Of a DNA stretch of 36,230 nt, positions 3,618 through 18,508 are shown one piece after another. Position 1 is the stretch's first letter, and every line of letters starts with the position of its first letter. Below the pieces are notes generated by a model, which had not been told where the DNA came from, did not search any database, and saw only the letters and a program-made list of their open reading frames with translations. This DNA comes from Phenylobacterium sp. SCN 69-14 (GTDB lineage Bacteria; Pseudomonadota; Alphaproteobacteria; Caulobacterales; Caulobacteraceae). The position numbers and the translations under genes are program-made. The stretch covers positions 1 through 36,230 of the forward strand of contig MEEW01000004.1 in assembly GCA_001724985.1 (NCBI GenBank). The letters are read 5' to 3'.

Positions 3618-4064
3618 ATGCGTCTGACCGTCTATACCGACTACGCCCTGCGGGTGCTGATGTACGTGGCGGTTCGTCCCGAGCCGCTGCCGACCATCGG
3701 GCAGATCGCCGACGCCTACCAGATCTCGCGCAACCATCTGATGAAGGTGGTCTACGAGCTGGGCCAGGCCGGCTATCTCGAAACCGTCCGGGGCAAGAAC
3801 GGCGGCCTGCGCCTGGCGCGCAAGCCGCAGGAGATCGGCCTTGGCCGGCTGGTGCGCGAGACCGAGCCGGACATGGCGCTGGTGCCGTGCTTCGACCCGA
3901 TCCGCGCCCAGTGCGCCATCACCCCGGCCTGCCGCCTGCGCGGCGCGCTCGCCGAGGCGAGGGCGGCGTTCCTGGCGGTGCTGGACGGCTACACCCTGGC
4001 CGATCTGGTCGGCAATGGCGCTTCGCTCCAGGCCCTGCTCGGCCTCGCCCCGGCCGAGCCTTGA
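3618..4064 (+). CDS. nsrR: Rrf2 family transcriptional regulator, NsrR-like (Fe-S, NO sensor)
   Basis: MRLTVYTDYALRVLMYVA...YQISRNHLMKVVYELGQAGYLETVRGKNGGLRLA...CFDPIRAQCAITPACRL...YTLADLV; three-Cys Rrf2 cluster loop and ITPACRL/YTLADLV as in E. coli NsrR. Confidence 0.85.
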   Translation: MRLTVYTDYALRVLMYVAVRPEPLPTIGQIADAYQISRNHLMKVVYELGQAGYLETVRGKNGGLRLARKPQEIGLGRLVRETEPDMALVPCFDPIRAQCAITPACRLRGALAEARAAFLAVLDGYTLADLVGNGASLQALLGLAPAEP

Positions 4065-4185: not shown

Positions 4186-4467
4186 TTGCTGCAAGCTTAT
4201 CAGATCGTCGCGCTCAACCATCTTGGCGAGCCGATCGAGCGGCGCGAGACGGCCGCCGCGTCCCTGAGCGACGTCATGGCCCGGCTTGCCGCGTTCGGGG
4301 CGAACGGACACCGCTTCCAGGTCTGGCGGGAAGGCCGGCTGCTGTGGGAAGGGCCCCGCCCGCGGCGCGACTTCCGCCGCCAGCTTGCGGAGATCTGGCC
4401 GAGCCTGGACTGGCCCGCCTTCGGCGGCATGTCCGGCTGGCGCGGCGAGCGGCCCACCAACGCCTGA
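4186..4467 (+). CDS. Hypothetical protein, probable TTG start
   Basis: Frame of ORF 3841..4467; coding-like from TTG at 4186 (preceded by AGGGGG): LLQAYQIVALNHLGEPIERRETAAASLSDVMARLAAFGANGHRFQVWREGRLLWEG... Confidence 0.55.
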   Translation: MLQAYQIVALNHLGEPIERRETAAASLSDVMARLAAFGANGHRFQVWREGRLLWEGPRPRRDFRRQLAEIWPSLDWPAFGGMSGWRGERPTNA

Positions 4468-4475
4468 CGCGGCGG

Positions 4476-4580
4476 GGCGAAGTATTCGCTCTTGCGCAAA
4501 ATTTGCGGAAGCCTTGCTGTGCAAATTACGCAGGCTTCCCGGCCATCCGCATATTTGCATTGCGCGAGGCGAATATTGGC
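4476..4580. promoter_or_regulatory. Cluster of five AT-cored palindromic motifs downstream of the Phd-PAS gene
   Basis: GCGAAgtaTTCGC (4477-4489), CGCAAAaTTTGCG (4495-4507), TGTGCAAATTACGCA (4518-4532), CGCATATTTGC (4548-4558), GCGAATATTGGC (4569-4580). Confidence 0.5.
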
Positions 4581-4665
4581 TCTCATCTTTTCGGTGCACG
4601 CAGCACCGTCTGCGTGCGCTTGAAGTAGCCTGCCGTCACCCAGCTCTCCGGCAGGTTCGCCCCCG

Positions 4666-4719
4666 ACCGGCTCAGCCGGTGCTCCGAGCGGCCGGGTCGT
4701 CCTGGCGGCCGCTCGGAGC
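4666..4719 (-). terminator. Tandem hairpins 3' of the Phd-PAS gene, probable terminator region
   Basis: GCTCCGAGCGGCCG-N11-CGGCCGCTCGGAGC (4681-4719, 14-bp perfect stem), then ACCGGCT-c-AGCCGGT (4666-4680). No strong U-tract. Confidence 0.5.
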
Positions 4720-4740
4720 TGTCGGGCGCGATGCGCCAGC

Positions 4741-5649
4741 CTAGATTTCGACGCCGACCACGGCGATGGCGATGCACGCCCCATCGCGGCGGATGGGCGC
4801 GCACGACACCTTCAGCCGGCAGGCCCCTTGCGTCCGCATCATCAGGTTGAACACCCCGACATGGCTCTCGGTCGTTCCGCAGACCAGGGTGTTCAGCGTG
4901 CGGGCGGTCTCCTCGCGGTCGGCCTCGGCGCACACGTCGATCAGGCGGATGCGTTCCAGGTCGCTGCGGGAAAAGCCCAGGATGTGACAAAGATAGTCGT
5001 TGGCGTAGCTGAAGAACCCCATAGGGTTCACATGGAAGATCGAGATCTCGCAGAGGTCGTTCAGCGCCCGGTGCTCGGTGCGCCAGACCTCCGAGGCGCG
5101 CCGCAGCTCGTGCAGTTCGGTCTCCTGCAGGAAGGTGTAGGCCAGCCCGCCGCGGAACGGGAAGATGCAGACGCTGTAGAGGCGGCTCGGATCGTTGACG
5201 CCGGTCATCTCGAAGCGGACGGCCTCGGCGGTGCGCAGCACCCGCCGCATCCAGGACACCAGCGTGGCGACGGCCTCGTTTTCCCGGGCCAGGGTCTCGA
5301 AGTCGAGCTGCATGGCCGCGTCGGCGTCCAGGCCCATATTGGCCGCGGCCACCGCGTTCAGGCCGCGGATGCGCAGGTCGCGGTCCAGCCACACGAACCC
5401 TTCGCGCATGTGCGCGGCCAGGGTGGTCACGCCGTCCATGCCCAGGTCGAAGTCGGCGATGTCCGGCGCGACGTCGCCGCGAGCGCTCAAGGCGAAGTAT
5501 TCGCTCGCGGACATCAGGACGACCCGGGGTCGGCCGTGATGGGTCACAAGGACTGGGTGCGACGCAGCCACGTCCTGCCAATGCCCGAAATTTCGACTGA
5601 TCTCGGCCGCCGATATTCTGCCGCCCGGCTGATCGAATCCTTTCGGCAT
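4741..5649 (-). CDS. Phd/YefM antitoxin-like N-terminal domain fused to tandem PAS domains
   Basis: From ATG at 5649: MPKGFDQPGGRISAAEISRNFGHWQDVAASHPVLVTHHGRPRVVLMSASEYFAL (Phd/YefM fold signature), then two PAS-like segments (MREGFVWLDRDLRIRGLNAVAAANMG...; CEISIFHVNPMGFFSYANDYLCHILGFSRSDLERIRLIDVC...). Confidence 0.8.
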   Translation of the reverse strand: MPKGFDQPGGRISAAEISRNFGHWQDVAASHPVLVTHHGRPRVVLMSASEYFALSARGDVAPDIADFDLGMDGVTTLAAHMREGFVWLDRDLRIRGLNAVAAANMGLDADAAMQLDFETLARENEAVATLVSWMRRVLRTAEAVRFEMTGVNDPSRLYSVCIFPFRGGLAYTFLQETELHELRRASEVWRTEHRALNDLCEISIFHVNPMGFFSYANDYLCHILGFSRSDLERIRLIDVCAEADREETARTLNTLVCGTTESHVGVFNLMMRTQGACRLKVSCAPIRRDGACIAIAVVGVEI

Positions 5650-5756
5650 AAATCCCCTTTGGGCCGCTGCGGTTATTAAGCCCGACGGAGCATGCGGCGG
5701 ACCGCCGCACCTGTTCAAGATGATCGGATGATGAATTTTACCTTTCGAGGGGCGGT

Positions 5757-5816
5757 GTGCAAAATGCACGGAAAATTTCTGCGTAAATTGCGTGACTTGT
5801 CGACGCAGGATTTGCG
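5757..5816. promoter_or_regulatory. Array of palindromic motifs in the divergent Phd-PAS / TPR-sulfotransferase promoter
   Basis: GTGCAaaaTGCAC (centre 5763), GAAAaTTTC (5775), GCGTAAATTGCGT (5787), CGCAGGATTTGCG (5810); spacings 12, 12, 23. Confidence 0.55.
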
Positions 5817-5901
5817 CGGCCGCAGACGCGACTGACCTTACGACGATCTTAAGCCTGCTCGGCCAAGCTGGCGCTTCGCGGACCGAACCCAGGGAGATTC
5901 C

Positions 5902-7407
5902 ATGTCCGAGTTCTTCCGATCGGGCCTCGCCGCGGCGCAGGCGCGCCAGCCGGCCGAAGCCCTGGCCTGGTTCGAACGCGCGGTCGCGGCCGATCCGGCC
6001 GACACCCAGGCCCGCGCCTGGCTCGGCCAGTCCCTCTGCGCCGTCGGCCGCCGCCTGGAAGGCGTCGAGGCCCTGCGGCGCGCGGGCGGCGACCTTCTCG
6101 ACCGCGGCGACCTCGACAAGGTCTGCACGGTCATCGGCCAGTTGCACGGCTGGGGCGATTTCCCCGGCGCCCTCGTTCTGGCGCGCTCGGCGGCGGCTAA
6201 GGCCCCGGAGAACCTTCAGGTCCAGCATCTGCTCGCCATCACCTGCGGCCAGCTCAACCTCACGGACGAAGCCTTGGCCGCCGCCGAGGCGGCCGACGCC
6301 CTGGCGCCCGGCAACGTCATGCTGCAGGTCTTCCGCGGCGCCCTGGAGGCCGACGCCCGGCGCTTCGAGGCCGCCCGGCCTCGCCTGGAACAGGTCCTGG
6401 CCGCCAGTCCCGGCCCCCGCGAAGCCCACCGGGCGCACAAGGAGTTGGCGCGGGTCCTCGACGCCCTGGGAGACTATGCGGGCGCCTTTGCGCATCTCGA
6501 CGCCGCCGCGCCGCTGGCCCAGGGTCTGCCCGAATTCCAGAGGCACGATCCGCGGTTCATTCCGGCCATGGTCTCGGCCAACCGGCAAGGGTTCACGCCC
6601 CAGCTCATGGGCCGCTGGCGCGCCCACGCCTTCGACGACCCCGCGCCGGTCTTCCTGCTCGGCTTCTTCCGCTCGGGCACGACCCTGGCTCAGCAGGTGC
6701 TGGACGTGCATCCGGACGTCTTCGTCTCCGACGAGGCGGGCCTGCTGGGGGAGGTCACGCGCGAGTTGCACGCCATGGTCCCCGGCATGGGCAATATTCA
6801 CAGCAAGCTGGACCGCCTGGACGCCGCCGGCGTGGCCGAGCTTCGCCGCGCCTACTGGCGCGCCGCCCAGGGCCGCTACGGCGAGGCGCTGCAGGGGCGC
6901 ATCCTGGTCGACAAGTTCACCCTCAGCACCGTGGACCTCGGCCTCATCAACACCATCTTCCCCGATGGGAAGGTGATCTTCGCCCAGCGCGATCCGCGCG
7001 ACGTCTGCGTCAGTTGCTACATGCAGCTCATGCCGCCGACCCCCGCCACCCGGCACCTTCAGGACTGGGAAGGCGCGGCCCAGTTCTACGCCCTGGTCAT
7101 GGACTGGTGGCTGTTCATACGGCCGCGGCTGACGCTTCCGGTCTTCGAGCTGCGCTATGAAGCGGCGGTCGGCGATTTCGAGGGGACGTTCCAAGCGGCT
7201 TTCGAATTCCTCGGGCTGGATCGGCCCGAGGGCGCCGAGACCTTCTACCGGAATGCGCGCGGCCGCTATGTCGCCAGCCCCAGCCGCAACCAGGTCTCCC
7301 AGCCGATCTATGGCTCTTCGGTGGCCAGATGGCGGCGCTACGAGGCGCCGGTCGCGCGCATCGCCGACCGCCTCGCCCCCTTCGTCCAGGCCTTCGGCTA
7401 CGCCTGA
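5902..7407 (+). CDS. Tetratricopeptide repeat - sulfotransferase fusion protein
   Basis: N-terminal TPR-like repeats; PAPS-binding motifs FLLGFFRSGTTLAQQVL (5'-PSB) and AQRDPRDVCVSCYMQ (3'-PB). Confidence 0.88.
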   Translation: MSEFFRSGLAAAQARQPAEALAWFERAVAADPADTQARAWLGQSLCAVGRRLEGVEALRRAGGDLLDRGDLDKVCTVIGQLHGWGDFPGALVLARSAAAKAPENLQVQHLLAITCGQLNLTDEALAAAEAADALAPGNVMLQVFRGALEADARRFEAARPRLEQVLAASPGPREAHRAHKELARVLDALGDYAGAFAHLDAAAPLAQGLPEFQRHDPRFIPAMVSANRQGFTPQLMGRWRAHAFDDPAPVFLLGFFRSGTTLAQQVLDVHPDVFVSDEAGLLGEVTRELHAMVPGMGNIHSKLDRLDAAGVAELRRAYWRAAQGRYGEALQGRILVDKFTLSTVDLGLINTIFPDGKVIFAQRDPRDVCVSCYMQLMPPTPATRHLQDWEGAAQFYALVMDWWLFIRPRLTLPVFELRYEAAVGDFEGTFQAAFEFLGLDRPEGAETFYRNARGRYVASPSRNQVSQPIYGSSVARWRRYEAPVARIADRLAPFVQAFGYA

Positions 7408-18000: not shown

Positions 18001-18444
18001 TTAGCCGCGCGGACGCCAGACGCCGTCGCGGTCACGGCACACCTGGAAGCTCTGGGTGCGGCCGTTGTAGCTGTCCTTCACCCAGCGGCAGTTGCTCGAG
18101 GCGGCGTAGTTGCTGCGCTGGACGGTGTTGTTGCGATAGGCCGCGCGCGGCGCGGGGCGATAGCGGTCGCACTTGGCGTTGCGCTTGCCGATCTCGTGGC
18201 CGGCCACCGCGCCCACCGCGCCGCCCAGCAGGGCGCCTTCGGTCTTGGCGCCCTTGGCCGCCACGCCGCCGCCCGCCAGGGCGCCGACCAGGCCGCCGAC
18301 GATGGTGCCCTTGTTGGCCTGCTGGCGGGTCTGCTCGCGGCAGGGATCGTAGGACTGGGCCGACGCCACGCCCGGCAGCGCGACCGTGGCGGGGACGGTC
18401 AGGGCCATCATCCCGGCGGCGGCGAAAGCAAGAGCTCGTTGCAT
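18001..18444 (-). CDS. Glycine-zipper domain exported protein, paralogue of the downstream gene
   Basis: Signal peptide; YDPCREQTRQQANKGTIVGGLVGALAGGGVAAKGAKTEGALLGGAVGAVAGHEIGKRNAKCD. Confidence 0.85.
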   Translation of the reverse strand: MQRALAFAAAGMMALTVPATVALPGVASAQSYDPCREQTRQQANKGTIVGGLVGALAGGGVAAKGAKTEGALLGGAVGAVAGHEIGKRNAKCDRYRPAPRAAYRNNTVQRSNYAASSNCRWVKDSYNGRTQSFQVCRDRDGVWRPRG

Positions 18445-18508
18445 CGGTCATCTCCTTCGTACATTGCGTAGGCGGCGCCGGAGCACCCCCTGCGCTGCGA
18501 AACTTGGC

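Follow-up and report, generated by a model that had tools for sequence, protein, structure and literature searches.

The intergenic region upstream of the phd-pas gene in Phenylobacterium sp. SCN 69-14 carries a row of palindromes, and the question that it raises is which protein reads them and which genes they serve. The window analysed here is a stretch of 36,230 nucleotides (contig C4) from a source genome that is incomplete (2.69 Mb, 77% complete). In this window, phd-pas (4741–5649, − strand, stop included) encodes a protein of 302 residues whose N-terminal Phd/YefM DNA-binding domain precedes two PAS domains, and the divergent gene (5902–7407, + strand) encodes a TPR-sulfotransferase (Pfam Sulfotransfer_3, 93.1 bits). 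A candidate phd-pas promoter was located by consensus match at 5735–5763 (− strand), with a −35 box TTTGCA (5763–5758) and a −10 box TAAAAT (5740–5735), and is the sole sigma-70-like match in a scan of 4400–5960. An Rrf2-family regulator, NsrR-like (an NO sensor) by reading of its translation, is encoded near phd-pas at 3618–4064; this neighbourhood is not kept at L030, the locus of the closest Phd-PAS orthologue.

Pfam analysis of Phd-PAS gave matches to PF02604 (31.3 bits, cut-off 29.8) and PAS_4 (39.6 bits). The AlphaFold2 model (mean pLDDT 86.8) places the N-terminal Phd/YefM fold of the antitoxin family at residues 11–56, encoded at 5482–5619 (− strand), and the PAS domains at residues 69–175 and 180–301. 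In a Foldseek search of the PDB with the Phd domain, matches 1–41 are proteins classed as antitoxins, some of them putatively, and almost all belong to the Phd/YefM type; the best is YefM (2a6q, TM 0.68/0.79), and the predicted structure also matches that of P1 Phd in complex with its operator (4zm2). The Phd domain is the most conserved portion of the Phd-PAS family. In place of a disordered C-terminal toxin-binding tail, residues 69–301 form two PAS domains, and no cognate toxin gene was found among the flanking ORFs of phd-pas in the window and in L030. Sensor and DNA-binding domain are thus joined in a single chain, as in a one-component regulator. The tandem PAS part resembles MmoS (3ewk), FixL and DosP in fold and, as in these sensors, two PAS domains are predicted to sit on a linking helix, whereas the output is a Phd DNA-binding domain and not a kinase or phosphodiesterase. 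PDB sequence matches to designed Pizza proteins were discarded, since they repeat a 19-residue match due to chance. The literature searched, whose coverage leaves out most subscription journals, yielded no paper describing a Phd-PAS fusion.

A preliminary description of the locus had listed four palindromes, centred at 5763, 5775, 5787 and 5810, as an array with a phasing of about 12 bp. All four strings are present at these centres, but their symmetry is uneven: GTGCA-AAA-TGCAC (5+3+5) and GAAAATTTC (4+1+4) are perfect, while GCGTAAATTGCGT and CGCAGGATTTGCG pair at 4/6 positions only. Palindromicity alone proves nothing, because perfect 13-bp inverted repeats are common both in the window and in shuffled sequence; the 36-kb window holds 109 perfect 5+3+5 repeats, and at least one occurs in 28% of shuffles of the phd-pas intergenic region. 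Judged from sequence comparison, the significance of the array is that of its conservation, not of its palindromicity.

Phd-PAS relatives were gathered from contigs of the genus, the family and GTDB. A single-protein query against the genome contigs gave no match, and the intergenic DNA as query gave, outside its own genome, only short chance matches; an alignment-based search of the contigs yielded 41 loci. A palindromic motif was learned de novo from 27 non-redundant 350-bp upstream regions of relatives, with the window excluded. The resulting motif, TaCGcAaatTgCGtA / TACGCA-WWW-TGCGTA, reached a log-likelihood of 144, against 30–42 for 12 shuffled sets. When the 36-kb window was scanned blind with this matrix, positions 5780–5794 came first, at 19.8 bits. 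A matrix built from 12 promoters outside Phenylobacterium ranked the centre 5787 first and the centre 4525 second in the window, and a third matrix, from target promoters, again ranked 5787 first, though it is only partly independent because those promoters were picked with a related pattern. The top score of the phd-pas intergenic region with the relatives' motif was matched in 0.03% of shuffles.

The hexamers of the array start at 5756, at 5780 and 5789, and at 5802 and 5813. The main predicted operator site, TGCGTAAATTGCGTG (5780–5794, centre 5787), consists of two TRCGYA-type hexamers 9 bp apart. The secondary predicted site, TGTGCAAAATGCACG (5756–5770, centre 5763), is the perfect 5+3+5 repeat; it scores 8.9 bits, rank 6 in the window, and overlaps the −35 box of the candidate phd-pas promoter. 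A weak third site, GACGCAGGATTTGCGCG (5802–5818), has its two hexamers 11 bp apart and scores 3.0 bits (5804–5818). The remaining string of the early list, GAAAATTTC at centre 5775, was rejected as an operator unit, scoring 1.3 bits with the relatives' motif.

The motif is found upstream of nearly all named Phd-PAS relatives, from Phenylobacterium and Caulobacter to Fulvimarina (L059, TACGCAAAATACGCA). The centre of the main site lies 138 bp upstream of the phd-pas ATG in the window and 136 bp upstream in L030, whose protein is 59% identical. The preliminary description had named conservation in orthologous intergenic regions as the test of its own reading; the test was run and the motifs are conserved, which, together with a first site placed over the −35 box, bears out its view of the array as the predicted operator of the adjacent phd-pas. 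The motif was not found upstream of the L031–L033 paralogue group (with L004 and L012–L014), nor upstream of L057 and L058. In L031, L032 and L033, as in L004 and L012–L014, a different inverted repeat, CTGCGACCCTAGGGCGCAG or a close variant of it, stands about 60–90 bp upstream of the GTG. The Fulvimarina gene (L059, 2450–3007), which comes from another order, encodes a 185-residue Phd protein that matches the query only over the Phd domain and the first PAS region, and its operator lies 125 bp upstream; this protein is possibly an intermediate form.

The same comparison bears on the divergent sulfotransferase, for which control by the array had also been suggested. An array governing the sulfotransferase as well as phd-pas would be compatible with a Phd-PAS operator, and the array lies about 85–145 bp before the start codon of the sulfotransferase. 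Such control is unsupported, however, because the site keeps its distance to phd-pas, and not to the divergent gene, where the latter differs: in L030 it is an alpha/beta-hydrolase-like ORF. None of the motif-bearing genes that were examined elsewhere encodes a sulfotransferase, and no sigma-70-like promoter was found on the + strand in the scan of 4400–5960. We regard joint control as possible but rather unlikely.

Returning to the array as the predicted operator of phd-pas, a second array was found on the other side of the gene, at 4493–4532, in the gap that separates the 3′ end of phd-pas (stop at 4741) from that of a small ORF on the + strand (ending at 4467). This array had not been foreseen in the preliminary description. 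It comprises TGCGCAAAATTTGCG (4493–4507; 11.6 bits, rank 4) and TGTGCAAATTACGCA (4518–4532; 18.4 bits, rank 2), hexamers at 4546 and 4561 may extend it, and its top score was matched in 0.07% of shuffles. No credible start codon was found within its reach. The site at 4518–4532 lies inside a GGAAGCC/GGCTTCC inverted repeat (about 4507–4540), and an Rfam search for an RNA under the array returned nothing beyond an F6 match below threshold (− strand, 4676–4725). The second array is possibly a looping site, part of an unannotated small RNA or a remnant.

The spacing of the hexamers distinguishes these arrays from the operator type to which they had been likened. Across 30 upstream regions, TRCGYA pairs occur 27 times at a distance of 9 bp (1.6 expected) and 16 times at 18 bp (1.7 expected), whereas none occurs at 12 bp; the spacing z-scores are inflated because the 30 upstream sequences are related, and the contrast between 9 and 12 bp is plain. 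Each array in the window has one exact 9-bp pair (5780/5789; 4518/4527) and an adjoining 11-bp pair (5802/5813; 4493/4504). The 24-bp site repeat of the first array and its third site are weak, and neither is matched in relatives. Periodicities of 12 and 24 bp are ruled out as a general rule by the hexamer spacing in relatives, so the proposed 12-bp phasing is not borne out. The spacing rule of YefM/Phd-type regulators, on which that phasing had drawn, stands for E. coli YefM, where the YefM-YoeB operator has TGTACA cores in S and L palindromes spaced by 12 bp (PMC4803016), but does not extend to the Phd-PAS sites, with their TRCGYA core and 9-bp period. Both systems combine a Phd/YefM fold with several adjacent 6-bp palindromic cores overlapping their own promoter; unlike YefM-YoeB, Phd-PAS has no toxin partner, two PAS domains and unlinked sites at chemosensory genes.

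The 9-bp period is found instead at alphaproteobacterial modules of the PHD-PemK type, described by Makarova et al. 2009 (PMC2701414). Here TNCGNA hexamers recur every 9 bp near the phd start codon or promoter, and the window pair 5780/5789 follows this pattern. PAS-less Phd antitoxin ORFs were found in two Phenylobacterium genomes: L222 (G090) has TACGTATTTTGCGTAAGTTACGTA just before its start codon and is followed, by reading of the translation, by a PemK-like ORF, and L224 (G018) has the near copy TTCGTATTTTACGTAAGTTACGTA in the same place. A Sinorhizobium plasmid Phd antitoxin, annotated beside a PemK-like toxin, has TGCGGAAATTACGGAGAATCCGTATATTCCGGA immediately before its start codon, and its copies in Agrobacterium and Rhizobium carry a shorter form, CCCGTATATTCCGGA. 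The Phd domain of the window protein is 39–48% identical to these antitoxins, of which L222 and L269 have a different tail where Phd-PAS has its PAS domains. Phd-PAS thus shares with the PHD/SMa0917 (PemK/MazF-like) systems both the Phd domain and the 9-bp-phased TNCGNA operator (L222, L224, L269); unlike these systems, whose antitoxins have about 80–95 residues and a toxin gene downstream, it is toxin-less and has two PAS domains.

Because toxin-paired Phd antitoxins share the 9-bp CG-core operator, and given this level of identity and the structural match to YefM and P1 Phd, it is very probably the Phd domain that reads the array; we infer that Phd-PAS binds it directly. The array itself is very probably an ancestral antitoxin operator, kept after the loss of the toxin. 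SpoVT/AbrB-type regulators, such as Bacillus SpoVT, likewise join an antitoxin-type DNA-binding domain to a sensor-type domain in an ordinary regulator; SpoVT, as a possible parallel, would differ from Phd-PAS in its AbrB/MazE DNA-binding fold and in carrying a GAF rather than a PAS domain.

We consider it quite likely that the array is the operator of Phd-PAS, an antidote turned regulator in which tandem PAS domains have replaced toxin and tail, and which would repress itself and act on chemoreceptor and signalling genes. The unit read would be the palindromic hexamer TRCGYA; a pair of these at a 9-bp step would make up the 15-bp site TRCGYA-WWW-TRCGYA, which further units would extend. The Phd/YefM fold would bind DNA, with two PAS domains where the toxin and toxin-binding tail have gone, and the PAS pair would most likely sense a redox, gas or small-molecule signal that alters the side-by-side binding of Phd units. 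Phd-PAS would repress its own promoter via the site over the −35 box; autorepression is likely because 5756–5770 overlaps the sole promoter-like −35 box. At chemoreceptor and related signalling genes it would act via sites upstream of a CtrA-like box. Oxygen, NO or redox is our preferred guess for the signal, given that the tandem PAS part looks in fold like known redox and gas sensors and that several of the targets themselves sense gases. The sequence comparison itself establishes the conserved sites, their 9-bp period, their tie to Phd-PAS and the like layout at PAS-less Phd antitoxins; repression and the signal are our inference, as is the direction of control at the remaining genes, which might be up or down.

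Like the second array, the additional genes for chemosensing and gas sensing had not been foreseen. Counted with up to one mismatch, the pattern TRCGYAWWWTRCGYA averages 4.9 copies per genome in the 12 genomes with Phd-PAS vs 1.2 in the 89 without it (p = 1.7e-6, a value that ignores shared ancestry), and the contrast holds with the sites of the phd-pas locus removed (p = 5.9e-6); the reversed pattern, used as a control, likewise turns up slightly more often where Phd-PAS is present (1.4 vs 0.66, p = 0.10). In the source genome, scanned by pattern, strong sites stand at just one locus other than the window. A protoglobin chemoreceptor in this genome has three sites (C6:8970–9070), and sites also accompany it in G021, G028 and G072. 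PAS chemoreceptors lie beside sites in G071, G022, G086, G021, G083 and G072, with related ones in G017 and G035. Sites also occur beside MHYT-kinases (G022, G083, G021), hybrid or HAMP kinases and, in G072, an H-NOX protein with a GGDEF-EAL neighbour.

At PAS-chemoreceptor promoters (orthologues of 78–100% identity), the site is present in 6/6 Phd-PAS genomes, with 16.6–23.1 bits, vs none of three equally close orthologues (79%) from genomes without Phd-PAS (1.6–4.6 bits). Protoglobin-chemoreceptor promoters have it in all four Phd-PAS genomes with a close orthologue (18.0–23.3 bits), while 0/22 homologues in Phd-PAS-free genomes exceed 8 bits, a weaker contrast because these homologues are more distant. 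The 13 aligned promoters all share an element TTA-N8-TT[AT]AC, which we take to be a CtrA box (consensus TTAA-N7-TTAA) and of which neither strand of the 36-kb window holds a copy. The Phd sites are found on the upstream side of this CtrA-like box, at varying distances. In G072 the PAS-chemoreceptor site stands at another position than in the remaining PAS-chemoreceptor promoters, and this difference points to an independent gain of the site.

These promoters weigh against pure autoregulation, by which Phd-PAS would control itself only and the other motif copies would be fortuitous or belong to solo Phd antitoxins. In Caulobacter the strong sites are indeed mostly at phd-pas itself, and the source genome has its single other locus; yet all four protoglobin-chemoreceptor promoters have sites, at differing positions, as do six PAS-chemoreceptor promoters, and such scores arise in fewer than 2% of random 420-bp stretches (12/640, taken from loci that include true sites). 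We therefore hold self-control alone to be improbable. Even less weight goes to another, unlinked transcription factor that reads the sites and counts phd-pas as one member of its regulon. The presence of the motif at many promoters besides phd-pas and its absence from some Phd-PAS paralogues would suit such a factor, but the motif follows Phd-PAS across 101 genomes, orthologous chemoreceptor promoters do not have it where Phd-PAS is missing, and toxin-paired, PAS-less Phd antitoxins have the same operator at the classical autoregulatory place. Chance palindromes in an AT-richer intergenic region, already disfavoured, are scarcely credible however common perfect 13-bp repeats may be (at least one in 28% of shuffles), given the blind first rank in 36 kb, a shuffle frequency of 3e-4 and the conserved distance to phd-pas.

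With the array as the operator of Phd-PAS, we lean slightly towards a fuller evolutionary account, in which a Phd antitoxin became a sensory switch. It would have kept the ancestral 9-bp operator, exchanged its toxin for tandem PAS domains and, by repeated gain of sites upstream of CtrA-box promoters, been wired onto O2/NO-chemoreceptor, H-NOX/cyclic-di-GMP and kinase genes in Phenylobacterium. This addresses the open question of how addiction modules turn into ordinary regulators, and the steps can be aligned among present-day species: first a Phd that still has its toxin and operator, then a Phd-PAS that shares this operator, and finally target promoters that have the sites where Phd-PAS is present and are without them in close relatives that do not have it. 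The analysis yields a defined predicted binding site, along with some twelve target promoters that can be tested, and hints at a regulatory layer, so far unrecognised, above the CtrA-controlled chemosensory genes of Caulobacteraceae.

Some further sites were noted in the course of the scans. G090 and G107, as candidate counter-examples with a PAS-chemoreceptor site and Phd-PAS absent, were set aside since their site belongs to a different, long palindrome, ACTCAATT-N5-AATTGAGT in G090 (L206) and with one mismatch in G107 (L207), about 222 bp upstream of the PAS chemoreceptor. In the window, TTCGTACATTGCGTA (18456–18470, 14.5 bits) lies about 19 bp upstream of a small glycine-zipper-like ORF (18001–18444, − strand) and is possibly a further site, or chance. 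Finally, several genomes of Phenylobacterium and Caulobacter (L148 at 1951, L153 at 2021, L157 at 1985, L168 at 1508 and L186 at 1508) keep TGCGCAATTCACGTA at the start of a gene for a PLP-type (lysine/ornithine) decarboxylase; this sequence may be an independent element.
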